From the NCBI GenBank assembly GCA_029001845.1, contig JAREWP010000054.1, positions 1-64,000 on the forward strand: a DNA stretch of 64,000 bases, written 5' to 3'. Position 1 is the stretch's first letter. Every line of letters begins with the position of its first letter. The position numbers were made by a program, and so were the translations under genes. The notes under the pieces are model-generated. The model was not told the origin of the DNA. It saw nothing but the letters and a program-made list of their open reading frames with translations, and did not search any database. This document shows, piece after piece, positions 15,259-53,472 of the stretch. Source of the DNA: Candidatus Magnetocorallium paracelense (GTDB taxonomy: Bacteria > Nitrospirota > Thermodesulfovibrionia > Thermodesulfovibrionales > Magnetobacteriaceae).

Positions 15259-15393
15259 CAATACCATTAACTTTAAGGGGTGAAGCACCTTCCGACGGAA
15301 GCGGGTCATGTCTGAGAAGGCGCAGCGAAGCAGCGCCTTCGAGTTTAGCCGCTGAAGGCGGATGGTGCTTTGCTCCTTAAGTTAATAACATTG
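15259..15393. repeat. 134-bp palindromic MITE, copy 1
   Basis: The left end CAATACCATTAACTTTAAGG and the right end CTCCTTAAGTTAATAACATTG are inverted. The interior also folds on itself (GAAGGCGC against GCGCCTTC). The flanking target duplication is eroded (AGCCTTATA against AGCCCTAAA, seven of nine). It lies between pgeF and the pstS promoter. Apart from it and the Pho promoter, 15096-15540 holds no gene. Confidence 0.85.
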
Positions 15394-16685: not shown

Positions 16686-16819
16686 TAATACCATTAACTT
16701 AAGGTGTGAAGCACCTTCCGACGGAAGCGGGTCATGTTTGAGAAGGCGCAGCGAAGCGGAGCCTTCGAGTTTAGCCGCTGAAGGCGGATGGTGCTTTGCT
16801 CCTTAAGTTAATAACATTG
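16686..16819. repeat. 134-bp palindromic MITE, copy 2
   Basis: The ends and interior match the other copies; the outermost base is T instead of C. The flanks TTCCGAAACT (16676-16685) and TTTCGAAACT (16820-16829) match at nine of ten positions, a clear target duplication. It has inserted inside the pst operon, between the pstS terminator and pstC, and may alter pstC expression. Confidence 0.9.
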
Positions 16820-29965: not shown

Positions 29966-32900
29966 ATGCCAAAAAGAGAGGATATAAAAAAAATACTGCT
30001 CATCGGTTCAGGGCCTATAGTGATAGGTCAGGCCTGTGAGTTTGATTATTCTGGCACCCAGGCTTGTAAAGCATTGAAAGAAGAAGGCTATCATGTAGTG
30101 CTTGTTAATTCCAATCCCGCCACAATTATGACTGACCCGGAAACTGCCGATGTTGTGTATATAGAACCCCTTACTACCGATATCGTCAGTATGATCATCG
30201 AAAAAGAGAAGCCCGATGCACTATTACCTACAATGGGAGGACAGACCGCTCTGAATCTTACCGTTAAATTGGCCGATCAAGGCATACTGGACAAACACAA
30301 TGTAAAACTGATTGGCGCAAATCTCAAAGCAATTCACAAAGCCGAAGACAGGGACCTGTTTAAAAAAGCGATGACCGCCATCAACCTTGAAACTCCTGAA
30401 AGCGCTGCTGTTACTACCCTTGAGGAAGGTCTTAGAGCACTTAAAAACATCGACTTCCCTGCAATATTAAGACCGGCTTTTACCCTTGGAGGCACCGGAG
30501 GGGCAGTTGCATACAATATGGAAGAATTTAATATCCTGCTGAAAAAAGCTATAGATCTCAGCCCTGTCAATCAGGTGCTTATTGAAAAATCGGTGATAGG
30601 ATGGAAAGAGTATGAACTGGAGGTCATGAGAGACAATGCCGATAATGTAGTAATTATCTGCTCGATTGAAAATCTCGATCCAATGGGTGTCCATACAGGC
30701 GACTCGATTACGGTAGCCCCGGCTCAGACCCTCACGGATAAAGAGTACCAGAGGATGAGAGATGCAGCCATAGATATTATACGCGAAATCGGCGTCGATA
30801 CAGGAGGCAGTAATATTCAGTTTGCCGTTAACCCCGAAGACGGAGAGATGCTTATTATCGAAATGAACCCCAGAGTTTCCAGAAGCTCGGCTCTGGCAAG
30901 CAAGGCGACGGGATTTCCTATCGCTAAAATAGCAGCGAAACTTGCTGTCGGTTTAACACTGGACGAGATTCCAAACGATATCACACAAGAGACGCCTGCC
31001 TCCTTTGAACCGGTAATAGACTATGTCGTAACAAAAATTCCGCGATTTACATTCGAAAAATTTCCCGATACTTCCATGGAACTGACAACTCAAATGAAAT
31101 CTGTGGGAGAGGCGATGGCGATCGGCAGGACATTCAGGGAATCTCTCCAAAAAGCGGTCAGAAGTCTGGAGACCGATACCTATGGTTTTGGAGAGATTCA
31201 ATGCAAAGAGAGCGTCTTGAGATCGAAACTCAAGACACCGAATTCAGAGAGGCTGTGGTATTTAGCAACTGCAATTCGTAAAGGAATGGATATAAACTCA
31301 CTCTATGAGATAACGATGATCGATCCCTGGTTTTTACACAACATAAAAGATATTGTTGCAATGGAAGATTCCATCTCCTCAATTGGCAATTTTGAAGACG
31401 AAGCAGCAAAAGATATTGTCAGGAAGGCCAAGGAATACGGTTTTTCCGATCACAGAATCGCCACGCTTATCAAAGGGGATGAGAAAATCGTCAGAAATTT
31501 CAGGGCCAAACAGGGAATTTCGCCTGTCTATAAAAGAGTCGATACCTGCGCAGCCGAATTCGAGGCGTTTACCCCATATCTTTATTCTACCTATGAGCGC
31601 CCCTTTTATAAGCTCCTTGACGGACTTTCACCACAAGAAGCCACCCCTCTGTACGACTGCGAAGCCAATCCCTCGGACAAGGATAAGATAATTATCCTCG
31701 GTTCCGGTCCGAATCGTATAGGCCAGGGCATAGAATTCGACTACTGCTGCGTCCATGCGGTATTTGCTCTGAAAGAACTGGGCTTTGAAACAATAATGGT
31801 GAACTGTAATCCCGAAACGGTGAGCACTGACTATGATACAGCTGACAGACTCTATTTCGAGCCCCTCACAGTCGAAGACGTTCTGAATATTATAATAAAA
31901 GAACGCCCCTACGGTGTAATTGTTCAGTTCGGAGGACAGACGCCTTTAAAACTTGCCGTCCCTCTCGAAAAGGAAGGGGTCAATATACTCGGTACCTCAC
32001 CTGACGCCATAGACAGAGCGGAAGACAGAAAAAGATTCAAGGACTTGATTCATAAACTGAAACTGATACAGCCGATGAACGATACAGTTATGTCAACGGA
32101 CGAAGCCGTCAAATCGGCTGCAACCATTGGATATCCCATTGTTGTAAGACCATCATATGTTCTTGGCGGCAGAGCAATGGAGATCGTTTATGACGAGGAC
32201 TCCCTCTACGATTATATGGGAAGAGCGGTGCAGGTTTCCCCGGAACATCCGGTCTTGATCGATAAGTATCTTGAAGATGCGATAGAAGTTGATGTAGACG
32301 CAATTTCGGACGGGTCAAGAGTTATCGTTGGCGGCGTTATGCAACACATAGAAGAAGCAGGTATTCATTCAGGCGACTCCGCCTGTTCCCTGCCTCCCTA
32401 TTCTCTTGACAATACGATAGTAGAAGAGATCAAAGATCAAACAAGAAAAATGGCGCTGGAGCTTGGTGTAGTAGGTCTGATGAATGTACAATATGCAGTG
32501 AAAGACAATGATGTATATATACTGGAAGTTAATCCCAGGGCGTCAAGGACGACTCCCTATGTGAGTAAAGCGACAGGAGTGCCTCTGGCGAAAATAGCAG
32601 CCAAATTAATGGCGGGCAGGACGCTCGACGAGCTTAAAATTTTCGAAGACAAACAAATCGATCATATAGCGATTAAGGAATCGGTCTTCCCCTTTGACAG
32701 ATTTTCAAATGTAGATACCATTCTCGGACCTGAAATGAAATCTACTGGAGAGGTAATGGGAATAGATACTGATTTCGGAACGGCCTATGCCAAAGCTCAA
32801 TCGTCCAGTTACAACCGAATACCTCTTTCAGGGAGTTTTTTTATAAGTGTCAGAGACAAGGATAAAGAGGCCATAGGGGAAATAGCAGGCGCACTGATAC

Positions 32901-33226
32901 AAAACGGTCTCTCCATTATAGCGACAAAGGGGACTGCGAACTATTTAAGAAAGCTGGGCTTCGATGTAAAGACAATAAACAAAGTAATGGAAGGCCGACC
33001 GCATATTGTAGATTTAATAAAGAATAGTGAAATAAGTTTTGTAATAAACACCGTTCAGGGGGCTCAGGCGAAAAAGGACTCCCAATCTATAAGAACGACT
33101 GCCCTCCAGTACAAAGTACCCTACACAACGACGATTTCAGGCGCAAAAGCGGTTATCGAAGCGATCGACAAAGTGAAAAAGAGAAATTTCAACGTGAAAC
33201 CGATTACCCAATATCATAAAAAGTAA
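29966..33226 (+). CDS. carB: carbamoyl-phosphate synthase large subunit
   Basis: This 1086-residue protein makes carbamoyl phosphate from bicarbonate, two ATP and ammonia supplied by CarA, for pyrimidine and arginine synthesis. The two homologous halves are clear. The first begins [20 protein letters not shown], with an ATP-grasp ending in [19 protein letters not shown]. The second begins [18 protein letters not shown] (about 575), with [19 protein letters not shown]. The C-terminal MGS-like allosteric domain covers about 945-1086. The length is normal. carA is not adjacent. It appears to be transcribed alone and converges with the glycan cluster. Confidence 0.97.
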
Positions 33227-33252: not shown

Positions 33253-33978
33253 TTAATCTGTAGAATGAAAAAACTTTAAAGCTTCATCGAAATCTTCCCT
33301 AGAATTGACATTGAAATAGGCTGTGCTTATTTCAAAAGATTTAATTGAACGCCCCTCATCAATAGCACATTGGATAAGGTCCGGCAGTTCTTTTTCTTTT
33401 CTATTGTAATTAATCGGCGTCTTTTCAATATAAGAGACAATATCCTTGTTAAAAATGCAATTTCCGGTTCCCATAAGGTTGTTAAATGGTTTTTTTGGCT
33501 TTTCAACAAGTCTGTATATTGTATTTTTATCATCTTGAAACAATGAATATGTCTTTGATATTTTTTCCATATTGCTGACCGGAACAACACCGCATACGGC
33601 AAAAACATCGGATTCCCGAAATCTATTCATCATTCCTGTATGATCGGGCTTGTAAATCAGCTCGTCTCCCAGAAGTAGAAGGAAGTCCTCGGTAAGGAAC
33701 TCTTTGCTGTTCTCGATAGCATGGACCAGCCCTTTTTGCTCCCACTGTATTACATATTGTATCCTTTTTCCTTTATAGTTATTACCATATCTGTTTATAA
33801 TCTCTTCCGCTTTATAGCCGACAACGATTATTATTTCAGAAATATCTAAATCTTTAATAGCGTCGAGATTGTATTCAATAATTGGTTTACCATTTAACGG
33901 GATCGTACATTTATTGCTCCCAGCAGCAAATTCGTTAATTCTCGATCCTCTTCCACCGGCCAAGATTAATGCTTTCAC
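33253..33978 (-). CDS. sugar-nucleotidyltransferase
   Basis: This 241-residue protein starts MKALILAGGRGSRINEFAAG, the nucleotide-binding loop of the NTP_transferase family, followed by KCTIPLNGKPIIEYNLD and the LLLLGDELIY metal-binding region. It transfers an NMP to a sugar phosphate to make an activated sugar. It belongs to the RfbA/GlmU-N type but is shorter and has no C-terminal acyltransferase domain. It begins seven bases after the epimerase gene, so the two likely act together to supply one sugar nucleotide. The exact nucleotide is unknown. Confidence 0.85.
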   Translation of the reverse strand: MKALILAGGRGSRINEFAAGSNKCTIPLNGKPIIEYNLDAIKDLDISEIIIVVGYKAEEIINRYGNNYKGKRIQYVIQWEQKGLVHAIENSKEFLTEDFLLLLGDELIYKPDHTGMMNRFRESDVFAVCGVVPVSNMEKISKTYSLFQDDKNTIYRLVEKPKKPFNNLMGTGNCIFNKDIVSYIEKTPINYNRKEKELPDLIQCAIDEGRSIKSFEISTAYFNVNSREDFDEALKFFHSTD

Positions 33979-33985
33979 AACTCTA

Positions 33986-35017
33986 TTATTCCTTCACAAA
34001 GACATTACGGTTTATATTTATCCATTGAATCAGCTCTTTTATACCCTCTTTTGGCATAATCGACGGCTGCCATCCAAGTTCCCTGGTAGCCTTTTCTATA
34101 TTGCAAATAAAATATCTTAAATCTCCGTGCCTGTCCTGTGCGAAATGAACTTCCGGCCTTACGCCGTTAATCTCCTCGATAATGTCAATACACTCTAAAA
34201 GAGAAATCGATGTACTTACTCCACCTCCTATGTTATAGACGCCGGGCCTTCTTTTTAAGTAAAATGCGTCAAAGGCTTTACATACGTCTGTTGCAAATAT
34301 TATGTCTCTGACCTGCTTACCTTTTCCAAAAATTGTAATTGGCCAATTTAGAACGCTTCGTATTGAAAAATTAGCCACCCAGCCATGATCCTCACCGCCA
34401 AATTGTCGAGTACCGTATATTCCGGTAAGGCGGAAGCTGGCGGCTTCGACTTGGTAAGTGTCAATATAAGTTTTAACGTAAATATCTCCTGCTGCCTTTG
34501 ATGCATGCAAAGGCGTCAATAATCCTTCCAAAGTCCTTTCCTTCTCTGAAATACCCTCCGGATCTCTTAAATATCTTTTCTCGCCCTCTTTTAATGTCGA
34601 GTTGATTTCGTTACCGTATACATGCACCGTGGCGCAACTTGCAACAGGTATTTTCAGTTTACGGGCTGTTTCCAGGACATTGAATGTTCCCATAACATTC
34701 GTAGTCACATCCAACATCGGATCTTCCCAACTGATTGTCATTGCAGGCTGAGCGGCAGTATGAATAATATAATCGCATCCATGACTGTTGTCGATAAGCT
34801 CTTCGAAATTTCTGATGTCGGCCTTAACCAGTTTTACGCCAAGACCCATGAGATATTTCCGATTAAACTCTCTTGCCTCTTCAGTAGCAAATCCGGTTCT
34901 CGATAATTCATGCTTTGTCATATTATCGAAAGAAATGACGTCAGCACCTTTTTGGGTATAAAACTCACAGACATGGGATCCCAAAAATCCGCACCCCCCG
35001 GTAACTAAAACTTTCAT
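33986..35017 (-). CDS. NAD-dependent sugar epimerase/dehydratase (CDP-paratose 2-epimerase-like)
   Basis: This 343-residue extended SDR protein has the NAD loop TGGCGFLGSH (7-16) and conserved HTAAQPAMTISWEDP. The downstream signature FRLTGIYGTRQFGGEDHGWV resembles the substrate loop of CDP-paratose 2-epimerases. The usual YxxxK catalytic motif reads LHASK (codons TTG CAT GCA TCA AAG, near 34500), so the catalytic Tyr is replaced by Leu. Either another residue supplies the proton or the enzyme has a shifted activity. It is followed closely by the nucleotidyltransferase. Confidence 0.82.
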   Translation of the reverse strand: MKVLVTGGCGFLGSHVCEFYTQKGADVISFDNMTKHELSRTGFATEEAREFNRKYLMGLGVKLVKADIRNFEELIDNSHGCDYIIHTAAQPAMTISWEDPMLDVTTNVMGTFNVLETARKLKIPVASCATVHVYGNEINSTLKEGEKRYLRDPEGISEKERTLEGLLTPLHASKAAGDIYVKTYIDTYQVEAASFRLTGIYGTRQFGGEDHGWVANFSIRSVLNWPITIFGKGKQVRDIIFATDVCKAFDAFYLKRRPGVYNIGGGVSTSISLLECIDIIEEINGVRPEVHFAQDRHGDLRYFICNIEKATRELGWQPSIMPKEGIKELIQWININRNVFVKE

Positions 35018-35134
35018 GATTATCCTTATCTAATCTAAAATGTTTATAATAATTTCAAAACCAATATTAGTGACATGCTCACTAAACTAATCTTAGATAC
35101 ATCTCTTCTATAGAAAAGCATAAATTTAAACAAT

Positions 35135-36412
35135 CTATTCAAAGTCAATCCTTTTTCGATTATCAATACCGTAATTCTTTTCTCGATCTGTAGTATTGTA
35201 TGCTCTACAACCTTTACACAATGCAGGCACAGGAGCATCATGCTTGGTAACAGTGTTTCTAAACCATTTATAATAGTCATGGTTCCATATGAGTTTTAAT
35301 GACTCTTTTGTATAGTTTCCAAAAGAGTATTCTTGGAGGAATTTTCTTGAATTACTCATTAAAACGGCACAGCAGGGAAGAACCATATTATCAGGAACCA
35401 ATGCAAAATAAGGCTCCATCCAGGCTAAGCACTTATTCATTGAAGGGTTTTTATATGATTCTGTATGAGCGAAAATTACCGGCAATGTTTCATTATCATC
35501 TCTCACAATACTAAGAGTTTCCTCAATATAGTTGATTGGGATTTTTTCAAGGTACAAGCTGCTGACTTCAGGATAATTTAGCAGTCCGACAAAGTGAATT
35601 CTTGAAGTATCACCCCACTGTTTTTTGGCGCCAATGGATCTGATTAATTTTACGAAATCGGACATTTCATGAACATTTAGTTTATTTACAACAAATCTAA
35701 AGCATATTTCAGGTATAGGGCTGCTGAATTTATTTTTTATCTCTAAAAAATTCCTGATATTATTAACGACATTATCAAAATTACAACCTACTTTTATTTT
35801 CTCATAAGTCTCCTTTGTTGCTCCATCTATAGAAATATAAATACCGTCTACTCCTAATTTTATCAATTCCAATGATATTTCTTTATTAATTAAATCAAAA
35901 CTGTCTACTAAATAAACACTTGTTCCCTTATCTTTTAAATACTTGATCATTTTAATGTAATCTTTATTAAGAAAAGCATCACCTTCACCGGTTAGATTTA
36001 TCCAACGCAAAGGAAACTGATCTACCAGCGCTTTGAAATCATTAAAAGTTAAGACTCTACTGTCCTCGCCCCACCATGTATGCTCACAAATAATACATTT
36101 CTTATTACATAGCGTTGATACTTCAACCTCGATAAATCTGGGGAATGGAGCTAAAAAAGGATTTTTTCTCAATAGAGGTCCTATAAAATAATATGCTAAT
36201 TCTCCTGAACCTTCTCCGGTTGGAACCATTATCTTTGTATAAAAAAAATTAAAGAGATCATTATATCTCTTATTTTTTAATAAATAACGCATTGTCCTTG
36301 TAGAAGCAAATCCTGATTTGACAATCATTCTTAGCAAACCTGAAGCACCTATTGTATCAACTGTAGTGGTGTGATCAGCAGGTACAAAAAACTTAATTAA
36401 TTTATTAAACAC
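35135..36412 (-). CDS. radical-SAM/SPASM protein in the glycan cluster
   Basis: This is a 425-residue protein. The radical-SAM cluster CNKKCIIC (C102, C106, C109) is followed by the core (LTGEGDAFLNKDYIKMIKYL, VDGIYISIDGATKETYEKIK). A SPASM-type C-terminal region with further cysteines (MVLPCCAVLMSN, ALCKGCRAY) probably binds auxiliary Fe-S clusters. SPASM proteins inside polysaccharide loci are common; some act on sugars or lipids, but the reaction is unknown. It lies between the epimerase and the GT2 gene on the same strand. The first 90 residues are unassigned and helical. Confidence 0.85.
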   Translation of the reverse strand: MFNKLIKFFVPADHTTTVDTIGASGLLRMIVKSGFASTRTMRYLLKNKRYNDLFNFFYTKIMVPTGEGSGELAYYFIGPLLRKNPFLAPFPRFIEVEVSTLCNKKCIICEHTWWGEDSRVLTFNDFKALVDQFPLRWINLTGEGDAFLNKDYIKMIKYLKDKGTSVYLVDSFDLINKEISLELIKLGVDGIYISIDGATKETYEKIKVGCNFDNVVNNIRNFLEIKNKFSSPIPEICFRFVVNKLNVHEMSDFVKLIRSIGAKKQWGDTSRIHFVGLLNYPEVSSLYLEKIPINYIEETLSIVRDDNETLPVIFAHTESYKNPSMNKCLAWMEPYFALVPDNMVLPCCAVLMSNSRKFLQEYSFGNYTKESLKLIWNHDYYKWFRNTVTKHDAPVPALCKGCRAYNTTDREKNYGIDNRKRIDFE

Positions 36413-36518: not shown

Positions 36519-37241
36519 CTACATTCGTTTTAAAAAGCCGGAAAATTTTAACCTCCAAACGATTGTGAGAGCTTCCAGCAAAATCCAATGAGTTAATTTT
36601 GTTTTACCGATTTTACGTTCACTAAAAATAATAGGTATTTCCTCAATTTTAAACCCTTTTCGCCAAATTTTATAATTCAATTCAAACAAAAAAGAATATC
36701 CTTTAGCATAAAAATGTTTCAAATCAATGGACTCCAGAGCTTCTCTTCGTATGCATTTATATGCAGTCGTTTGATCAGTGAGTGGAACACCTGACAAAGT
36801 TCTGTAATATAAATTAGCTGCAGTAGAAAGAAGAAACCGATGTAATGGCCAATTAAGAATTCTTATGCCATCTATGTAGCGGGAGCCGACGACAAGATCG
36901 CAATCCGCCATTTTTTCTATAAAACGAGGGATATCATAAGGATCATGTGAAAAATCAGCATCCATGCCTATAATGTAATCATATTTGTTCTCAATTGCGA
37001 ATTTATAACCACTCAAGTAAGCTGTTCCTAATCCCATTTTTTTTTCCCTGTTCATCAGGTGAAGATGTGATTTGTACTTAGATAAGCATTTCTTAACTAA
37101 TTGACCGGTGCCATCAGGTGAATTGTCATCAATAACCAGAATATCGACAGATACGTTTAGAGAAAAGATTTTTTTAATGAGTTTAAGTATGTTGCCGGCT
37201 TCATTATATGTTGGAATTATAACTAAATGATTATTTTTCAT
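36519..37241 (-). CDS. polyprenol-phosphate mannosyltransferase-like GT2 (intact copy)
   Basis: This 240-residue GT2 enzyme has the start VIIPTYNEAGNILKLIKKIF, nucleotide-binding VIDDNSPDGTG, the DxD-type YIIGMDADFSHDP and the DLVVGSRYIDG and TDQTTAYKCIRR boxes. These are typical of dolichol/polyprenol-phosphate mannose synthases. No C-terminal membrane domain is present, so it is the short form. It would make a lipid-linked sugar donor for the membrane protein at 37456-39114. A second, broken copy lies at 39180-39766. Confidence 0.88.
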   Translation of the reverse strand: MKNNHLVIIPTYNEAGNILKLIKKIFSLNVSVDILVIDDNSPDGTGQLVKKCLSKYKSHLHLMNREKKMGLGTAYLSGYKFAIENKYDYIIGMDADFSHDPYDIPRFIEKMADCDLVVGSRYIDGIRILNWPLHRFLLSTAANLYYRTLSGVPLTDQTTAYKCIRREALESIDLKHFYAKGYSFLFELNYKIWRKGFKIEEIPIIFSERKIGKTKLTHWILLEALTIVWRLKFSGFLKRM

Positions 37242-37344
37242 AATTTATACTACACTTCCAAAGATTTGCAATATCTGCTAAAAAATTCATAAATTCATGA
37301 CCAAAGCTATCATTTATAATATTTTGTTTTAACACTATGCCTGG

Positions 37345-37425
37345 TTACGTATTTGCAAGATTATAAACAACAGTTGTGGAACTTCCGTAAACACCCATGC
37401 AAGGTTCAATCATTAAAACTTTCAT
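37345..37425 (-). pseudogene. N-terminal scrap of a GT4 glycosyltransferase
   Basis: The ATG at 37425 opens a 26-codon frame reading MKVLMIEPCMGVYGSSTTVV then YNLANT before TAA. It matches the first residues of the intact GT4 at 39790-40944 (MNVLMVEPYMGIYGGSATVV). Only the extreme N-terminus remains, directly upstream of the intact GT2. It is the trace of the second GT4 copy in a duplicated unit. Confidence 0.8.
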
Positions 37426-37455
37426 AGGTAAAAAGTAGTTTTATTGAAATGTAAA

Positions 37456-39114
37456 TTATATTATTTTAAATTTACCAGGTTTAAAAAAAATATTGTTCGT
37501 GTTTTCAGTAATTAATTCATCGATCTCAAAATAAAGATGAATTTGTTGTAACGTATACAATTGCCCCGGAACCTTAATTATAAAGCTTTTTTGCGATTTA
37601 TCAAAAGAAACTATTGTTGATTTTAATACTCCCCATATTGTTTCTCCCGGCTTCAGCTCCAAAAGTTTATTTACTAAAAAACTACGTGCTCTCATGTTTC
37701 TCTTTTCCGATACATTATCATGAAGTATATGATATATTTTATTTGAAACAGGATTTCTGAATTGCGAATGATAAATATCTATAAAAGGAATCAATAATGA
37801 ACCTCCGCTCAAGAACAAGACGTCATTTGGTTTTAAACTTTTAAGAACTTCATCTCGGATATAAGATACTGAATAATAAGTTCCTTTTGGAGAAGCAAGG
37901 AATTTATAAGCATGGGCGAGAGAATGAAAAGATATAAAAAAAATCAAAAAAGTCAAAAAAGAAATATTAAGGAATCCATTTTTCAGCCTGCTTTCTTTTT
38001 TAAAACGTAAAAAAGAAATTAATAAAATCGGAAAAAATAATGATAAAGAAAAAGATATATATATGTAGTAAGTAATAAAACGTCTTGTGTTCAAAATTAG
38101 TGAAATAATTAATGTGGAGAATAAAAATGTTATCAATATAATGTTCCTAAATTCCTTTTTAATTAAAGAGTAGCCATATTTTAATAAAAATATACAAGTA
38201 AGGCTTAAGAAAACTAAGAGGGGAGTCCAAAAGAATCTCCAAAAAAAGTTTATTAGAGCTGATTTGTCACCTCTGCCATAAAATGCATGATAAATAAGAT
38301 ATTGAAATCCTGAGCTATAACTACTACTGGAGGAAAGATCTTTCGCTTGTGTAGAAAATATCTCAAATGAATTGGGATAATCAGTAAAAAACCACCCGAA
38401 TGTAATAGCTCCGGGCAACAACATGATTAAATAAAAAAGGAACAATCTATAAAATTTCTCATTTTTTAGATGTAAGATCACAATACAACAGGAAATAATG
38501 TTTGAAATGATAAGTCCGTTTGAATGGAACACTCCAGACATGCCAAGTGAAAAAGAAGATAAATAAAAATATAAATGATTTTCACTTCGCGATTCAGTCC
38601 ATAAAAAATAAAAAATTAATCCGGCTACTATAGATACAAGCACAGGCACTTCAGGGCGTACAGCCCAGCACGTTAGCGAAAAGGGTGATGACGCAAGAAA
38701 AATTAAAAAAAGATTTATATGTATTACATACAAATCAGATTTTTTTTTATTTAAAAGTTTAATAAGATAACAGGTTAATAATAACAATAACAATAATGTT
38801 AAGAAATGTGGTAAGCGGTAAGTAAAATGGCTGAGAGATATTTTTAGGAATGACATAATATAAAGGCAGGCTGCCAGAAAATATGAGTAACCAGGCCATA
38901 CTTGAAATGTATTTAAAAAATCATCTCCGATAAAGATACCAAAACTCTTCTGATGTAAAATACCTAATGCACCTCCAAGATATTCTCCTACATCATTAGT
39001 TGAGGGCGGAAGAAAAAAATACGAAAATAAGGCCGATCCAAGCCAAGCATATAATAGCAAGTGAATAGTTGTACGTGATGACAAAGCAGCTATCAGCTTT
39101 TCTAAGAAAAACAT
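37456..39114 (-). CDS. polytopic membrane protein, probable lipid-linked-sugar glycosyltransferase
   Basis: This 552-residue protein has about ten to twelve hydrophobic helices and a soluble C-terminal tail of about 130 residues. The first loop (FFLPPSTNDVGEYLGGALGI) has the acidic residues expected in the periplasmic loop of GT39/GT-C enzymes, which use polyprenol-phosphate sugars. I cannot assign a precise family, and base composition is AT-rich. Together with the GT2 (polyprenol-phosphate-sugar synthase) this would fit a periplasmic sugar-addition step. The C-terminal tail (VPGQLYTLQQIHLYFE, ending FFKPGKFKII) is repeated in decayed form at 41000-41162. Confidence 0.7.
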   Translation of the reverse strand: MFFLEKLIAALSSRTTIHLLLYAWLGSALFSYFFLPPSTNDVGEYLGGALGILHQKSFGIFIGDDFLNTFQVWPGYSYFLAACLYIMSFLKISLSHFTYRLPHFLTLLLLLLLTCYLIKLLNKKKSDLYVIHINLFLIFLASSPFSLTCWAVRPEVPVLVSIVAGLIFYFLWTESRSENHLYFYLSSFSLGMSGVFHSNGLIISNIISCCIVILHLKNEKFYRLFLFYLIMLLPGAITFGWFFTDYPNSFEIFSTQAKDLSSSSSYSSGFQYLIYHAFYGRGDKSALINFFWRFFWTPLLVFLSLTCIFLLKYGYSLIKKEFRNIILITFLFSTLIISLILNTRRFITYYIYISFSLSLFFPILLISFLRFKKESRLKNGFLNISFLTFLIFFISFHSLAHAYKFLASPKGTYYSVSYIRDEVLKSLKPNDVLFLSGGSLLIPFIDIYHSQFRNPVSNKIYHILHDNVSEKRNMRARSFLVNKLLELKPGETIWGVLKSTIVSFDKSQKSFIIKVPGQLYTLQQIHLYFEIDELITENTNNIFFKPGKFKII

Positions 39115-39179
39115 AAGTGTATTTAAAATAAGGATTGTAATATAATTTTATGAAAACAATCATTAACTGTAGCATAACA

Positions 39180-39766
39180 AAAGCTTAAATTACAATATAC
39201 AGATGTTGAGTTTACAATTCGGACAGGATTGTTTTGGTTACATATAATTTTACTTTTTGCATAACAAGAACCAACGACCAGGTCATAGTCTGCCATTGCA
39301 TGAATAATTTCGGGATATCCCTGGATCGTGTGAAAAATCAGCATTCATGCCCAAGATGTAATCATACATTATTATCTATAGCAAATCGATAACCAAGCAA
39401 GTAAGCTGTACCCCAATCCCAGTTTTCCCTCTCTGCGTATCAGATGCAAGTGTGGCTTGTCTTTCTGTAAACAGTCTTATAGAATTTGGCCGGTATTGTC
39501 AGGTGAGTTGACGTCGATTATCAGGAGATCCGAAGGAATTTTCAAATGAAAAATAGCTTCTATGAGCTTTAATATATTACCTGCTTCATCAATACCATTA
39601 ACTTAAGGGGTGAAGCACCTTCCGGCGGAAGCGGGTCATGTTTGAGAAAGCGCAGCGAAGCGGAGCCTTCGAGTTTAGCCGATGAAGGCGGAAGGTGCTT
39701 TGCTCCTTAAGTTAATGACATTGCCTGCTTCATTATAATAGGAATTATAATCAAATATTTTTCCAT
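39180..39766 (-). pseudogene. GT2 glycosyltransferase, decayed copy carrying a MITE
   Basis: From the ATG at 39766 the strand reads like the intact GT2 at 36519-37241 but in several frames: LIIIP, then YYNEAG, NILKLIEAIF, LLIIDVNSPDNTGQI, and ADYDLVVGSCYAKSK. Frameshifts and stops separate the pieces. The similarity fades by about 39200, so the C-terminal third is lost. MITE copy 3 sits inside it at 39590-39723 and splits the NEAG/NIL motif. It is dead. Confidence 0.85.
39590..39723. repeat. 134-bp palindromic MITE, copy 3, with perfect 10-bp target duplication
   Basis: The left end CAATACCATTAACTTAAGG and the right end CTCCTTAAGTTAATGACATTG are inverted. It is flanked by identical CCTGCTTCAT at 39580-39589 and 39724-39733. 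Removing the element and one CCTGCTTCAT restores the GT2 homology. This copy proves mobility and defines the element's ends. Confidence 0.95.
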
Positions 39767-39789
39767 TACTCAGGATGAACTCTTATGTG

Positions 39790-40944
39790 TTACAAATGTT
39801 TTTTAAAAATATTCAGGAATTTTTCACCGAAATTTTCATAAGTAATATTTTTGAGCACATAATTTTTTCCTTGAACGCTTCTTTTTAAATGTCGATTATA
39901 ATTGTTATAGACTTCAGTTATTGCTTCGACAAGTTCGTCCGATACAATGCCAATATTTTGTTTACTTATTAAATCGGAGCAGGGAAGCGCCGATGAGACA
40001 ATTATCGGTTTTCCTGTGCATAAAGCCTCAAAAGGACCGAGCCATGAGCCCTGTCCTAAGCCCGGAAAAACAGCCATATGGGAAATACTGTAGATAGCAC
40101 GAAGTTCTTCCTTGCTAATATGACCGGTAAAAATCACTCTCTGTTTTAAATCATGCTCTCTGATAAAAGATTCGATTAGTTTTTTATAGTAGCTCTCCTC
40201 ATAGAGCCCTACAAAAATAACTTTGACTTCTTTAAATCTGTCTTTAATTCTTCTAAAAGCTTCAAGGAGATCCATCTGCTTTTTTGATGGAGATACCATA
40301 GCAGCATGAACTATATAGAAGGAATTGTTATCTATGCCGAATTTATGCCTTAATGCTTCCTTTTCGGTTATATTTACTTTTTTGGTAAAAAAATCGCTCT
40401 CTATACCGTACTGTATAATCTTAGGTTGCCATCCATAGCGGTAGGCAAATCTGCGAGCGTTTGTTTCGTCTGCCACGACAGCATCGGATACTTTTTTATT
40501 GGCAATCTTCTTATCGATAAATCTTCCGATGTCAGCTATTCGATTAATTATTTTATTTATTTTATAGGTATGCCAAAAATCCGGGATTTCGTTACACATC
40601 CATATCACAGGTTTTTTAGTGAAAGGCGTGGCCCATACTGCCGGAGTATTGTGTGTGTTAACAATATCAAAGTCATCTATGTACTTTTTAATTAAATCAT
40701 TGAGTATTCTGATCATTTGATATATTTCAAGAAGACTGGAGAAGTTTCCGCTTCTTATGTGATAAGGTATTTGCTTATGGGAAGGTGGTAAAATGATTTC
40801 AATTCCTTCATACTCCTTCCCGGATGTCAGGGATAATACGGTTGTCCTGACGTCATGTTTTATAAGATATTTAGCAAGGTTATAAACGACAGTCGCAGAT
40901 CCTCCATAAATACCCATATAAGGCTCTACCATTAAAACATTCAT
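39790..40944 (-). CDS. GT4-family glycosyltransferase (intact copy)
   Basis: From the ATG at 40944 the product has 384 residues and begins MNVLMVEPYMGIYGGSATVV, a typical GT4 start with the Gly-rich loop. The C-terminal Rossmann half holds FYIVHAAMVSPSKKQMDLLE, RVIFTGHISKEELRAIYS and FEALCTGKPIIVSS, the E-x7-E-type nucleotide-sugar site (GPFEALCTGKP). It transfers a sugar from a nucleotide donor to a glycan. An upstream in-frame start at 40977 adds 11 residues without support. It is the surviving copy of a duplicated gene (scrap at 37345-37425). Confidence 0.88.
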   Translation of the reverse strand: MNVLMVEPYMGIYGGSATVVYNLAKYLIKHDVRTTVLSLTSGKEYEGIEIILPPSHKQIPYHIRSGNFSSLLEIYQMIRILNDLIKKYIDDFDIVNTHNTPAVWATPFTKKPVIWMCNEIPDFWHTYKINKIINRIADIGRFIDKKIANKKVSDAVVADETNARRFAYRYGWQPKIIQYGIESDFFTKKVNITEKEALRHKFGIDNNSFYIVHAAMVSPSKKQMDLLEAFRRIKDRFKEVKVIFVGLYEESYYKKLIESFIREHDLKQRVIFTGHISKEELRAIYSISHMAVFPGLGQGSWLGPFEALCTGKPIIVSSALPCSDLISKQNIGIVSDELVEAITEVYNNYNRHLKRSVQGKNYVLKNITYENFGEKFLNIFKKHL

Positions 40945-40999
40945 CTTTTTTTCACTCAAACTATAGAATTTAGTCAATCCGGCTGAGAGTTACAAATAA

Positions 41000-41162
41000 T
41001 TAAAAAACAATAAATTTATAGGGTCTGAAAAACAAAGTGCTCGTGCTTTCATAAAGAATTTCCTTAATTTAAAATTCGAAAAAAATTTGTATTAGCAATG
41101 GATGTTGACCTGGAACTCTCATAATGAGAGTTCTACTTTCTGTGTCATTTGTGTTCATGGTT
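41000..41162 (-). pseudogene. C-terminal remnant of a second copy of the polytopic membrane protein
   Basis: One minus-strand frame with a single internal stop reads LIMRVPGQHPLLIQIFFEF, stop, IKEILYESTSTLFFRPYKFI. This aligns along its length with the C-terminus of the protein at 37456-39114 (FIIKVPGQLYTLQQIHLYFE, then TENTNNIFFKPGKFKII). It ends at TAA 41000-41002, just upstream of the intact GT4, the same relative order as in the other unit. The rest of the gene is gone. Confidence 0.75.
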
Positions 41163-41572
41163 AATTATGTATCAATTCATTTGCGTAGAACTATAAGTTA
41201 CGGCAGGTGTCTCGCAAGTGAGTTCCTATGATCTCTATAATTTTTATGTCTGGTAATAGTACAAGTAGTTTGGGTTGCAATGCATTTTTGTGAAATTTTT
41301 CTAAATTTTAACATAATAAAGGCATAAATTACTATCTGGATCTATTGTATTTACGATTCCAATACTATTTAAATGAGATGTTTGCAAGTCCTTATACAAA
41401 CGATTTTGTAACTACTCAGTTATTATGACTATCACGACAGATAATTTTTACATTAATTATTTTTTGTTTCCGTCTGCAATCTTCAGGCAAGATACATGAG
41501 TAGCAATATATAAGATTCCACTCAGGTTCCTTTTCCGGAGATTGCTTATGATATACTAAGCAGCGACAACTC
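41163..41572. other. gene-free stretch upstream of the GtrII-like gene
   Basis: No gene is supported. GTAACTACTCAG at 41408-41419 matches the ends of the element family at 12987-13145. The promoter of the divergent plus-strand gene at 41573 must lie here. Confidence 0.4.
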
Positions 41573-43143
41573 ATGAATGTAAAGCGTAATTTAACAATAT
41601 TTATTTCTATTTTTATATTTCTGTCGATATCTTTTCTACCTGTTCTGACCGGCTATTTTGTGTTTAACGACGACGCCTTCATGTGGGTGATGGAAGATGA
41701 CTGCAAGAGTCACCCGCAGTTTTTTTATTTTTTTTATATCGGCAGAGTCTCCTTTCCCTTTCTTGCCTGTCCCCTTTGGTCTTTTACGGATACAGTAGGA
41801 GATCTCAATGTCGGTCGTTGGATAAACGTTTTTTCCTTTTCTCTCTCTGCCATGATGTTCTTGAAATGGCTGCAAAAATATGGCGTCAGTCCAATGCATT
41901 CATTCCTTCTGACCCTGACTGCCTTTATCATGCCCACCTTTCAGACCCAAATCGTACTGGTAAATTCCTTTCCCCATTCGGTCGCCCTTGCTTCTTCGAT
42001 CCTGTCTGCACAGACAGCCTGTAAAGCCGCTGAATTAATATCGGACAAATGGAAATCTATAATTAACCGACAAACATTTATATCGCTTGCATTGCTATTC
42101 TTCTCAATGACAATATATACGCCTCTGTCCATGTTCTATTGGACAATGTTATCGATTCCGATTATAAAGCTCTCACAGTGGGACAGGATGGAAAAACGAA
42201 AATGGTTTTTTTATTCTCCCTTCCTCTGTTTACTGCACTAATGTTTTTTATTTTCTCAAAAATACTACATACGCTTGTGCCGACCCTGGTGGAAATCTCA
42301 AAAGAAATAGCAGGAGGCCATCAGGTAAGACTATCATTCGATCTCTTTTCAAAAATAGAATTGCTTGGCAACGCTGTAATCGCCGCCCTCAACTTGTGGA
42401 ATGTATTTCCTACACTGAAATTTGCTTCTGTCGTGATTATTTATGTAACAATTGGAGCTTCAGCTATTTTCTTTTATTTTCTCTACAACCGTAACTCCAA
42501 GACGCCGCCTCTACTCGGAATTAAAAACGCACTGCGCGGCAATTGTTTAAGAATCGTGCTTTTGTGCTCTCTGGTTCCGTTATCGGTCATGCCTAATCTT
42601 GCTGCCGATTTTAACCATTTAAGTTTTAGAATGATTACAGCTTTATCGGTTTTAGTCTTAATATTTTTATTTTTCTTAACAACCAGACTTTTTTATATAG
42701 TATTTGGAGAGAATAGATATAAGGCATTTATGACTTTAACGATGATTCCCCTTCTTTTATTCATCTCTTTCAACTGCCAGGCATATCTCAAAAAATATGT
42801 CGTTAACATAGCGGCAGCCGAGTTGAAATATTTTAAAAGCATAATACCGGTAGACAGATTGTCATATATTCGGAGAATAGCCACGTCAGGTCCCAATTAT
42901 AAGTCCGCCAGGCCGGAACCAGCATATTTTCTGGACGCCGATGAATACGGGTATCTTACGACAGCTTCTGAAATAAATACATTGGGGCTCTATAGGTGCG
43001 CCGTGAACGAATGCAGGAAGGATGGAAGAGATTGCGGAGACAAGACAATTCTTGACCAAAAAACCGGGGTATTGATTATAGACAGGGAGGCGTTATTGAG
43101 GGAGGTAGCCGGAAATTTCGATACTTTTCGGCAGGGTCTCTGA
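41573..43143 (+). pseudogene. GtrII-like membrane glucosyltransferase, frameshifted
   Basis: Two overlapping plus-strand frames, 41573-42241 and 42139-43143, encode successive parts of one polytopic protein. The first holds about six helices and an early acidic loop (GYFVFNDDAFMWVMEDD), as in GtrII-type O-antigen glucosyltransferases, which have an NDD box in this place. The second continues with further helices from LFTALMFFIFSKIL and a soluble tail ending RQGL. The switch falls near 42200-42240, close to a T run (GGTTTTTTATTC), so a one-base slip there would join them. It is either a true pseudogene, a sequencing slip or, less likely, programmed slippage. The function is inferred from topology only. 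Confidence 0.65.
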
Positions 43144-43332: not shown

Positions 43333-43920
43333 CTATACTAATGAATAATAACTCCCGTCAACACAATTTCTGCAAAAAACCTTCCCCTCTTTTACTACCT
43401 CCCTCAAATCCTGCACATACTCTCCGCAACTTTCGCATGGCACCCTCTTTAACGGTCTTCCGGGCATATTCTCCGGCTTGATCTCGATTTTTACTTCCCC
43501 CATCTCGAAAAGTTCCTCATCGGGCATTATTTTATATGCTTCCAGTTGAGCCTCATATTTGTCGCCGATATCGGGGAAATAATTCTTCGCCCTGTCGCGG
43601 GCGCCTTCAAGCGCTGTAATTCGAACGGCCTTACCTGTTTCAATGTTATAAAAAGAAGCCGCCATTTTACCATAATCAAGAAACTTAAGAGACCTTTTGC
43701 CGAGACTGCATCCTGTAACGGACTGTACAGCGTCTGTAGCGCATCGGTCGATCTCTACAAATGCGATTAACTTCTTTCTGTCTTTATTCAGAGGATCGTA
43801 AATACCGATTTCCCGCAAACCGAGTATAGACATCCTTACACCCAGCACTTGTCCGGGACACAAATGACCGTGCGTCTTTACCGATTCAGCCAAAAGCTCT
43901 TCAAAGTTAAAATTCTCCAT
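43333..43920 (-). CDS. FmdE-family protein with C-terminal zinc ribbon
   Basis: This is a 195-residue protein. Residues about 15-130 carry the FmdE signature (THGHLCPGQVLGVRM, RCATDAVQSVTGCSLGKRSL, FLDYGKMAASF). The C-terminal 40 residues hold a CxxC-x(n)-CxxC zinc ribbon (PCESCGEYV, FCRNCVDG). FmdE is named from formylmethanofuran dehydrogenase loci, but in bacteria it is found beside molybdenum-cofactor and formate dehydrogenase genes. It follows moaA by nine bases, with its AGGAGG site inside the moaA end, so a role linked to a Mo/W enzyme is reasonable. Its biochemical activity is not established. Confidence 0.88.
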   Translation of the reverse strand: MENFNFEELLAESVKTHGHLCPGQVLGVRMSILGLREIGIYDPLNKDRKKLIAFVEIDRCATDAVQSVTGCSLGKRSLKFLDYGKMAASFYNIETGKAVRITALEGARDRAKNYFPDIGDKYEAQLEAYKIMPDEELFEMGEVKIEIKPENMPGRPLKRVPCESCGEYVQDLREVVKEGKVFCRNCVDGSYYSLV

Positions 43921-43929
43921 AATTTTAGA

Positions 43930-44913
43930 TTACCCTCCTATGCCGACCATATCCTTTAATGTCCTGTTGATCCCGTCTTCCCGGAGATTATGCCCCTTTG
44001 GCTTAATCTCAATCGACAGCTTTAAAAGCCTCTTTATCTCCTCACGAGAAGCCCCTCTTCTTATCGAATTTTTTAAATCTATCTCAGTGTCCGAAAAAAG
44101 GCATGGTCTTAGTTTGCCCTCTGAAGTCAACCTTAATCTGTTGCAGTCCTCACAAAAATGATGAGTTACGGCGCTTATAAATCCAATTACTCCAATTGCA
44201 TTCTCAAACCTGTAATAGCGTGCAGGACCGTGCTTTCTTTCTTTTACAGGTATTAACCTGCCTATAGAGGACACCCGTTCTCTGATCTCTTCGGTTGGAA
44301 GATATTTCGATCTGTCCCATAAACTGTTTTTTCCCACAGGCATAAACTCGATGAACCGAACCTGATAATTTTTGGACAGAGTAATTTTTGCAAAATCCTC
44401 TATTTCGTCATCATTCATCCCCCTGATAGGAACTATATTAAGCTTTAAAGGCGTCAAATTATTATCGACTGCCGCCTGAATGCTCTTTAAAATAACATCT
44501 AAATCTCCACCTCCGGTAATATCTTTAAACCTGTCATGCTTTAAGGAGTCAATACTGATATTAACCCTGTCCAGACCTGCCGCAGCAAGAGAGGCGGCTT
44601 GTTTTTCCAAAAAGAGACCGTTCGTCGTGAGGCTTAAATCTTCGATGCCTTCAACTGCTTTAATACCTTTGATTAAAGTAGTAATATTCCTTTTAATAAG
44701 CGGCTCTCCTCCGGTAATCCTGATTTTTTTGACTCCCAGCTCGGAAGCGGCTTCAATAATCTCGATGATCTCCTCATAACGCAGCAGTTCGTCATGGTCC
44801 AGAAGTTCGACCCTGCCTTTAGGTATACAATATGTGCATCTGAGATTACAGCGGTCAGTAATGGAAATTCGCATATAATCGATAATGCGGTTAAAACTGT
44901 CTTGAAGCTTCAT
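43930..44913 (-). CDS. moaA: GTP 3',8-cyclase MoaA
   Basis: This 327-residue radical-SAM enzyme catalyses the first step of molybdenum-cofactor synthesis (GTP to 3',8-cyclo-7,8-dihydro-GTP). The N-terminal cluster cysteines are C22, C26 and C29 in DRCNLRCTYCIP. The C-terminal cluster is in HFCEDCNRLRLTSEGKLRPC. The chain ends with the essential double Gly (MVGIGG). The ATG at 44913 gives the standard N-terminus; a TTG at 44931 adds six residues. It is transcribed with the FmdE-family gene. No moaC is adjacent. Confidence 0.95.
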   Translation of the reverse strand: MKLQDSFNRIIDYMRISITDRCNLRCTYCIPKGRVELLDHDELLRYEEIIEIIEAASELGVKKIRITGGEPLIKRNITTLIKGIKAVEGIEDLSLTTNGLFLEKQAASLAAAGLDRVNISIDSLKHDRFKDITGGGDLDVILKSIQAAVDNNLTPLKLNIVPIRGMNDDEIEDFAKITLSKNYQVRFIEFMPVGKNSLWDRSKYLPTEEIRERVSSIGRLIPVKERKHGPARYYRFENAIGVIGFISAVTHHFCEDCNRLRLTSEGKLRPCLFSDTEIDLKNSIRRGASREEIKRLLKLSIEIKPKGHNLREDGINRTLKDMVGIGG

Positions 44914-45197
44914 ATCGATAGTATACAGCAAAGTACAGGGAATGTAAAAGAATAAGAGTAACCGTTTACAGGGATCAGGGATATGAGGTCTGTTATAAAA
45001 GATTTTCTCAAATACTCGCGGAATGAACTCTGCTTAACCGATGACTGTTTATCATGCTCCGGAAAATTAACAACAAAAAGGTCTTTTATCTTTAACTGAC
45101 CTCTGTCCTCAGACCGCCGTGAACAGATACGGATAAGAGTTATTCGGAAGGATTGACGGAAGGCGGAAGAGTGTCAGGTGTGGTTTTTAAAGTCCTG

Positions 45198-50444: not shown

Positions 50445-50578
50445 CAATACCATTAACTTAAGGGGTGAAGCACCTTCCGACGTAAGCGGGTCATGTCTGA
50501 GAAGGCGCAGCGAAGCGGAGCCTTCGAGTTTAGCCGCTGAAGGCGGAAGGTGTTTTGCTCCTTAAGTTAATGACATTG
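50445..50578. repeat. 134-bp palindromic MITE, copy 4
   Basis: It has the same ends and interior as the other copies. The flanks ATGTATAGTT (50435-50444) and ATATATAGTT (50579-50588) match at nine of ten positions. It is the main content of the gene-free stretch 50137-50696. It lies 119 bases before the next gene. Confidence 0.9.
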
Positions 50579-53308: not shown

Positions 53309-53442
53309 CAATACCATAAACATAAGGGGTGAACCACCTTCCGACAGAAGCAGGTCATGTTTGAGAGGGTGCAGCGAAGCGGAACCTTCGAGTTTAGCCG
53401 CTGAAGGCGGAAGGTGCTTTGCTCCTTAAGTTAATGACAGTG
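53309..53442. repeat. 134-bp palindromic MITE, copy 5 (most diverged)
   Basis: The ends are CAATACCATAAACATAAGG and CCTTAAGTTAATGACAGTG. The flanks ACTTACATTT (53299-53308) and ACTTTCATTT (53443-53452) match at nine of ten positions. It lies 18 bases upstream of the ribosome binding site of the zinc-ribbon gene, whose native promoter it may have displaced. Confidence 0.88.
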
Positions 53443-53472
53443 ACTTTCATTTTAAAATCAAGGAGGTTTAGA

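Follow-up and report, generated by a model that had tools for sequence, protein, structure and literature searches.

Within the window, the whole stretch of 64,000 nucleotides analysed here, a block encoding a multi-pass membrane protein (MP), a GT4 glycosyltransferase and a GT2 glycosyltransferase is present in two adjacent copies with the same orientation and gene order. In each of the three gene pairs one member is intact and the other is degraded, and the losses fall on both copies. We favour, with a probability of roughly 0.55, the reading that the two neighbouring units arose long ago from one ancestral MP-GT4-GT2 unit, in the simplest case through a tandem duplication within the lineage, that both units were subject to long selection, and that one member of each pair was lost late. 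The genome harboring this locus is that of a relative of magnetic bacteria, belongs to the Magnetobacteriaceae (Nitrospirota) and is a 6.0-Mb draft in 103 contigs, with a completeness of 99.6% and a contamination of 0.57%.

Layout of the locus and predicted functions of the intact genes

From position 41162 down to 36519 the minus strand carries, in this order, an MP remnant, an intact GT4 gene, a GT2 remnant, an intact MP gene, a GT4 remnant and an intact GT2 gene. The features of the locus and its borders are the following.

43333-44931, minus strand: FmdE-like/moaA pair, named by eye, one border of an AT-rich stretch
41004..41162, minus strand: MP remnant of copy 1, the last ~52 codons only, with one in-frame TAA (tblastn 40% over 50 aa, E 6e-6)
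39790..40944, minus strand: intact GT4 glycosyltransferase gene of copy 1, 384 aa (Pfam Glycos_transf_1 2.9e-19, Glyco_transf_4 5.9e-11)
39724..39766, minus strand: 5' piece of the GT2 remnant of copy 1, codons ~5-15, ending in a target-site duplication (TSD)
39590-39723, minus strand: MITE of 134 bp with imperfect 19-bp TIRs (CAATGTCATTAACTTAAGG / CAATACCATTAACTTAAGG) and the 10-bp TSD ATGAAGCAGG
39234..39589, minus strand: main piece of the GT2 remnant of copy 1, codons ~13-130, with several frameshifts and an in-frame stop
37456..39114, minus strand: intact gene of copy 2 for MP, a multi-pass membrane protein of 552 aa
37271..37425, minus strand: GT4 remnant of copy 2, codons 1-32 and ~363-383 joined over a ~1 kb deletion, with frameshifts
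36519..37241, minus strand: intact GT2 gene of copy 2, 240 aa, dolichol/polyprenol-phosphate-mannose-synthase-like (Pfam Glycos_transf_2 5.4e-26)
33253..36412, minus strand: three downstream genes, assigned by profile matches and given singly in the next three lines
35135-36412, minus strand: radical SAM/SPASM protein gene
33986-35017, minus strand: NAD-dependent epimerase/dehydratase gene
33253-33978, minus strand: nucleotidyltransferase gene
29966-33226, plus strand: carB, the other border of the AT-rich stretch with the glycosylation genes

A preliminary description of this DNA had read the MP-GT4-GT2 order twice on the minus strand, with one working gene of each kind and the losses split between the copies. 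Both points were borne out, as tblastn with the intact proteins recovered all six elements in place, each remnant being the best second place within the window, so that three intact genes stand beside three remnants. The survivors follow one another on the minus strand as GT4-MP-GT2, with GT4 derived from copy 1 and MP and GT2 from copy 2. However, if each of the three pairs loses one gene, chance alone is expected to give a mixed outcome in 6/8 cases, and the complementary pattern as such therefore carries little weight.

The stretch from carB to the FmdE-like/moaA pair is AT-rich, with a GC content down to 0.28-0.37 versus ~0.40-0.47 in the flanks, and carries the glycosylation genes. No RNA families were found at 33-45 kb. 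Two overlapping plus-strand ORFs, 41573-42241 and 42139-43143, adjoin the locus (span 41573-43143); together they resemble a single multi-pass membrane protein (GtrII-like on visual inspection) with a frameshift near 42.2 kb, and look like another glycosylation gene that is either decayed or mis-sequenced.

Judged by its Pfam profiles, GT4 is an ordinary GT4-family glycosyltransferase. Its start is most likely the ATG at 40944 rather than the TTG at 40977, because the former is homologous in position to the ATG at 37425 of the remnant. GT2 was matched over 232 residues to PDB entry 5mlz, a dolichol monophosphate mannose synthase (E 1.6e-30), and DDNSPDGT and DAD motifs of the DPMS type can be read in its sequence. 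The chain of 5mlz comprises 374 aa as opposed to 240 aa in GT2, which therefore is without the C-terminal part of the solved protein. We regard GT2 as a putative polyprenol-phosphate-hexose synthase. MP has no match in Pfam, NCBIfam or PDB; many membrane helices and a strand-rich C-terminal soluble part are predicted in a low-confidence structure model, the mean pLDDT of which (47) is too poor for a fold search. Residues D41 and E44 are invariant in 3 homologues.

For GT-C pathways, a polyprenyl-phosphate-sugar synthase next to such a membrane protein is a usual arrangement. In such a scheme, GT2 would load polyprenyl phosphate with a hexose, and the GT-C-like MP would spend this polyprenyl-linked donor on the periplasmic side, while GT4 may work in the cytosol on a lipid-linked or surface glycan to which the adjoining sugar-nucleotide genes contribute. 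As a member of every kind has been kept, the surviving GT4-MP-GT2 set would still form one working pathway, with an altered gene order.

Remnants and the insertion in GT2

The three genes were lost in different ways: MP by truncation, GT4 by an internal deletion of ~1 kb with a frameshift, and GT2 by frameshifts, a stop and changes of conserved residues. As had been proposed, all remnants align recognisably to their intact counterparts, with frameshift-aware scores above those of shuffled sequences for GT4, GT2 and the core of MP.

The MP core scores 93 versus a shuffle maximum of 54, and the remnant is also detected in a search of its own genome (E 9.8e-5). It had been described as a dead remnant, which holds, yet for the last ~52 codons only. 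A longer remnant upstream of 41162 was considered and rejected, given that the alignment reaches 41509 with 12 frameshifts and the stretch 41163-41573 scores 59 versus a shuffle maximum of 62.

The GT4 remnant (tblastn E 2e-6 in the window) consists of an N-terminal part covering codons 1-32 (37425..37331), with one frameshift and 21/31 aa identical, and a C-terminal part covering codons ~363-383 (37335..37271); they score 111 and 44, respectively, versus a shuffle maximum of 30 in either case. The preliminary description had recognised this remnant correctly but had underrated its size, taking it for a scrap of 26 codons.

In the GT2 remnant (tblastn E 3e-22 in the window) codons 5-130 are recognisable and the 3' part is mostly gone; the main part scores 365 versus a shuffle maximum of 68. 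Four residues that are each 100% conserved in 29 homologues are changed, namely D39, D94 (the first Asp of the DAD motif), R121 and G125.

The element that interrupts this remnant is a MITE: it is short and non-coding, has TIRs and a TSD, and occurs in many near-identical copies. Its TSD ATGAAGCAGG is an exact 10-bp repeat at 39724-39733 and 39580-39589 and is specific for this locus, and most family copies examined likewise have a 10-bp TSD. The TIR yields 197 matches per strand versus 0 in the control, corresponding to ~200 copies genome-wide, and 40 copies were scored at 94-98% identity in the same genome. With family members differing from the consensus at 1-3/132 positions, the expansion of the family is recent and heavy. 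Five copies lie in the window, at 15273-15393, 16696-16819, 39590-39723, 50455-50578 and 53319-53445.

The copy in the GT2 remnant differs from the consensus at 2/132 positions (0.015; 95% 0.002-0.05). Its insertion postdates the split of the two units and probably also the time at which GT2 began to decay. The earlier view that GT2 is dead and split by a MITE thus applies to the break itself, where the element is located, though further lesions are present. We consider the MITE unlikely as the sole cause of GT2 death because of the additional frameshifts, the stop and the lost conserved residues, and because the unconstrained phase estimated for the remnant (~0.07, see below) exceeds the divergence of the MITE, with overlapping intervals. 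Hence, the element would have inserted late into a dying or dead gene and was probably not its first lesion.

Kinship and age of the two units

Closer homologues elsewhere, which would point to separate acquisitions, were not found for any remnant. The GT2 remnant is identical to the local GT2 at 81/120 positions (68%), whereas the best of 34 homologues from the phylum and the same genome reaches 56/118 (47%), and the local pair forms a clade with a support of 100. Likewise, the GT4 remnant scores 111 against the local GT4 and no more than 72 against any relative tried, and the MP remnant scores 93 against the local MP versus 70 and 56 for the two MPs known besides it. As each remnant is closest to its local intact twin, the two units descend, on the evidence of these alignments, from one ancestral unit, as paralogues (or xenologues). 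A comparison of their spacers revealed no clear similarity, so that duplication in situ is a probable rather than a proven origin.

The silent sites of the twins were compared over 219 aligned codons. The proportion of silent differences, pS, is 0.63 for GT4, 0.67 for GT2 and 0.62 for MP, which is near saturation; the corresponding dS values of ~1.3-1.7 per pair have a wide error, silent distances being imprecise in this range, and the pooled pairs give a dS of 1.5 with a bootstrap 5% bound of 1.08. Between intact and dead copies, dN/dS is 0.15 for GT4, 0.14 for GT2 and 0.45 for MP, the last with a wide interval (up to 0.92) and based on a short remnant. Closer pairs of intact GT2 and GT4 homologues show values of ~0.07-0.2. 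The dN/dS of GT4 and GT2 equals that of intact homologues, which argues that the dead copies diverged mostly as working genes. These substitution patterns indicate that the twins are old and that purifying selection acted on both units during most of the period after their split.

At 33 conserved columns the GT2 remnant has 5 changes, and at such columns the intact GT2 has lost no residue that the remnant keeps. The 5 changes translate into an unconstrained phase of ~0.07 substitutions per site (~0.02-0.15), a rough figure from few sites, which suggests that this phase accounts for only a minor share of the divergence of the copies. By the same estimate, the decay of the lost genes appears to be late relative to the split of the units. 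The tree branches of GT2 and its remnant (0.065 versus 0.62) were not used for dating, as the root within the pair is weakly fixed.

Consequently, a reading of the locus as a recent duplication frozen in place does not hold: with pS of 0.62-0.67 and dN/dS of 0.14-0.15 both copies were long alive. Of the proposed clear case of reciprocal loss after tandem duplication, the paralogy and the one loss per pair stand, but the near-saturated silent sites and the dN/dS typical of functional genes take away its clarity.

According to the favoured reading, an ancestral MP-GT4-GT2 unit would have given rise to two neighbouring units long ago, with tandem duplication as the simplest route. While both were alive, they may have made related yet distinct glycans; each pair would have lost one member at a late stage, when the second pathway was no longer under selection. 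More tentatively, two old and functionally distinct glycosylation units could thus have collapsed late into one mixed pathway, with the GT4 of one and the MP and GT2 of the other. If the kept enzymes indeed share one glycan, complementary decay would have produced a chimeric pathway.

The strongest competitor, possible though clearly less probable than the favoured reading, is the joining of two diverged units, in which a related MP-GT4-GT2 unit arrived by horizontal transfer beside a resident one and redundant members were then lost. It would account for the low GC content of the stretch (down to 0.28-0.37 versus ~0.40-0.47) and for a divergence between the copies as large as that between species and genera. 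Moreover, MP is almost absent from the phylum, being found in only one other of 396 genomes, Magnetobacteriaceae nDJH14bin9 (G005), where GT4 and GT2 do not adjoin it, and the gene order behind carB is not shared with 6 relatives. However, no donor-like homologue nearer to either copy was found, and the composition at codon position 3 does not differ consistently between the copies (73 versus 62 directional differences). A GC difference as a mark of separate origin was accordingly discarded.

A recent tandem duplication after which redundant copies were rapidly lost in a complementary fashion, as implied by the preliminary description and as the SNAP model discussed below has it in its fast form, is improbable: the repeated order, the one loss per pair and the young MITE in one dead gene would fit, but a fresh, unconstrained copy should differ little from its twin and have a dN/dS of about 0.5 or more, instead of near-saturated silent sites and a dN/dS of 0.14-0.15, as between functional homologues. 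Least probable is an artefact, either an assembly error at a repeat or sequencing errors faking dead genes, as might be suspected in a draft of 103 contigs with ~200 MITE copies, given the perfect locus-specific 10-bp TSD, the large deletions and changed conserved residues in place of single indels, and the high completeness and low contamination of the genome.

Gene-order change and occurrence in relatives

Tandem duplication-random loss (TDRL) is best known from animal mitochondrial genomes. The locus resembles it in that a block is present twice, each pair lost one member, a new order arose (MP-GT4-GT2 to GT4-MP-GT2) and pseudogene scraps lie between the survivors, an end state equal to that of a single TDRL round; it differs in being located on a bacterial chromosome and in that a long divergence of the copies under selection preceded the losses. 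Losses at such a time are probably not those of freshly redundant genes.

For bacteria, the SNAP hypothesis posits a duplication, after which genes that are not under selection disappear from one copy or the other and a new order results (Brandis and Hughes 2020; PMC7055797). The duplications concerned are large, 8-355 kb in the isolates examined, and rapidly fixed; the authors seek pseudogenes with matching active copies and stated that direct evidence was lacking (PMC7055797). SNAP has also been invoked for changes in operon clusters (PMC8046335). The present locus shares with this model the pseudogenes beside active twins and the order changed through loss from different copies. In contrast, it comprises one unit of ~3-4 kb with old copies, for which selection for dosage cannot be shown, and its near-saturated silent sites and dN/dS of 0.14-0.15 fail the expectation of both models that loss promptly follows duplication. 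The locus is a small, probable new example of TDRL, i.e. of a SNAP-type gene-order change, and not of a new kind.

Duplicate-and-lose models predict intermediates with pseudogenes beside active twins, and the locus is a small candidate for one. Rather than a fresh duplication, it seems to represent a late stage in a slow course of duplication and loss. As both twins were long selected before the loss, it argues for a slow route, with paralogous units that later collapse, over the rapid loss of redundant copies, although one locus in one genome does not settle this question.

Neither a single nor an intact double MP-GT4-GT2 unit was found in the 396 genomes of the phylum, among which there is no congener, and a search for MP on plasmids likewise found none. 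In G005, two intact MP homologues stand in direct tandem (L026:7023-10429), with an identity of 50% between them and of 31-32% to the MP of the window; MP has thus been doubled independently in another genus. This pair is located near radical SAM-type and nucleotidyltransferase genes. The order epimerase, nucleotidyltransferase, radical SAM/SPASM and GT4 recurs in the Magnetobacteriaceae, in G011 (L028:7688-11668) and partly, with members missing, in G019 and G003 (L029:2046-4933 and L030:7222-9440), which suggests a conserved glycan pathway, as yet without a name, that includes a radical SAM reaction. Since homologous epimerase, nucleotidyltransferase, radical SAM and GT4 genes are grouped in relatives, the gene context of the survivors is that of a recurring glycan pathway.
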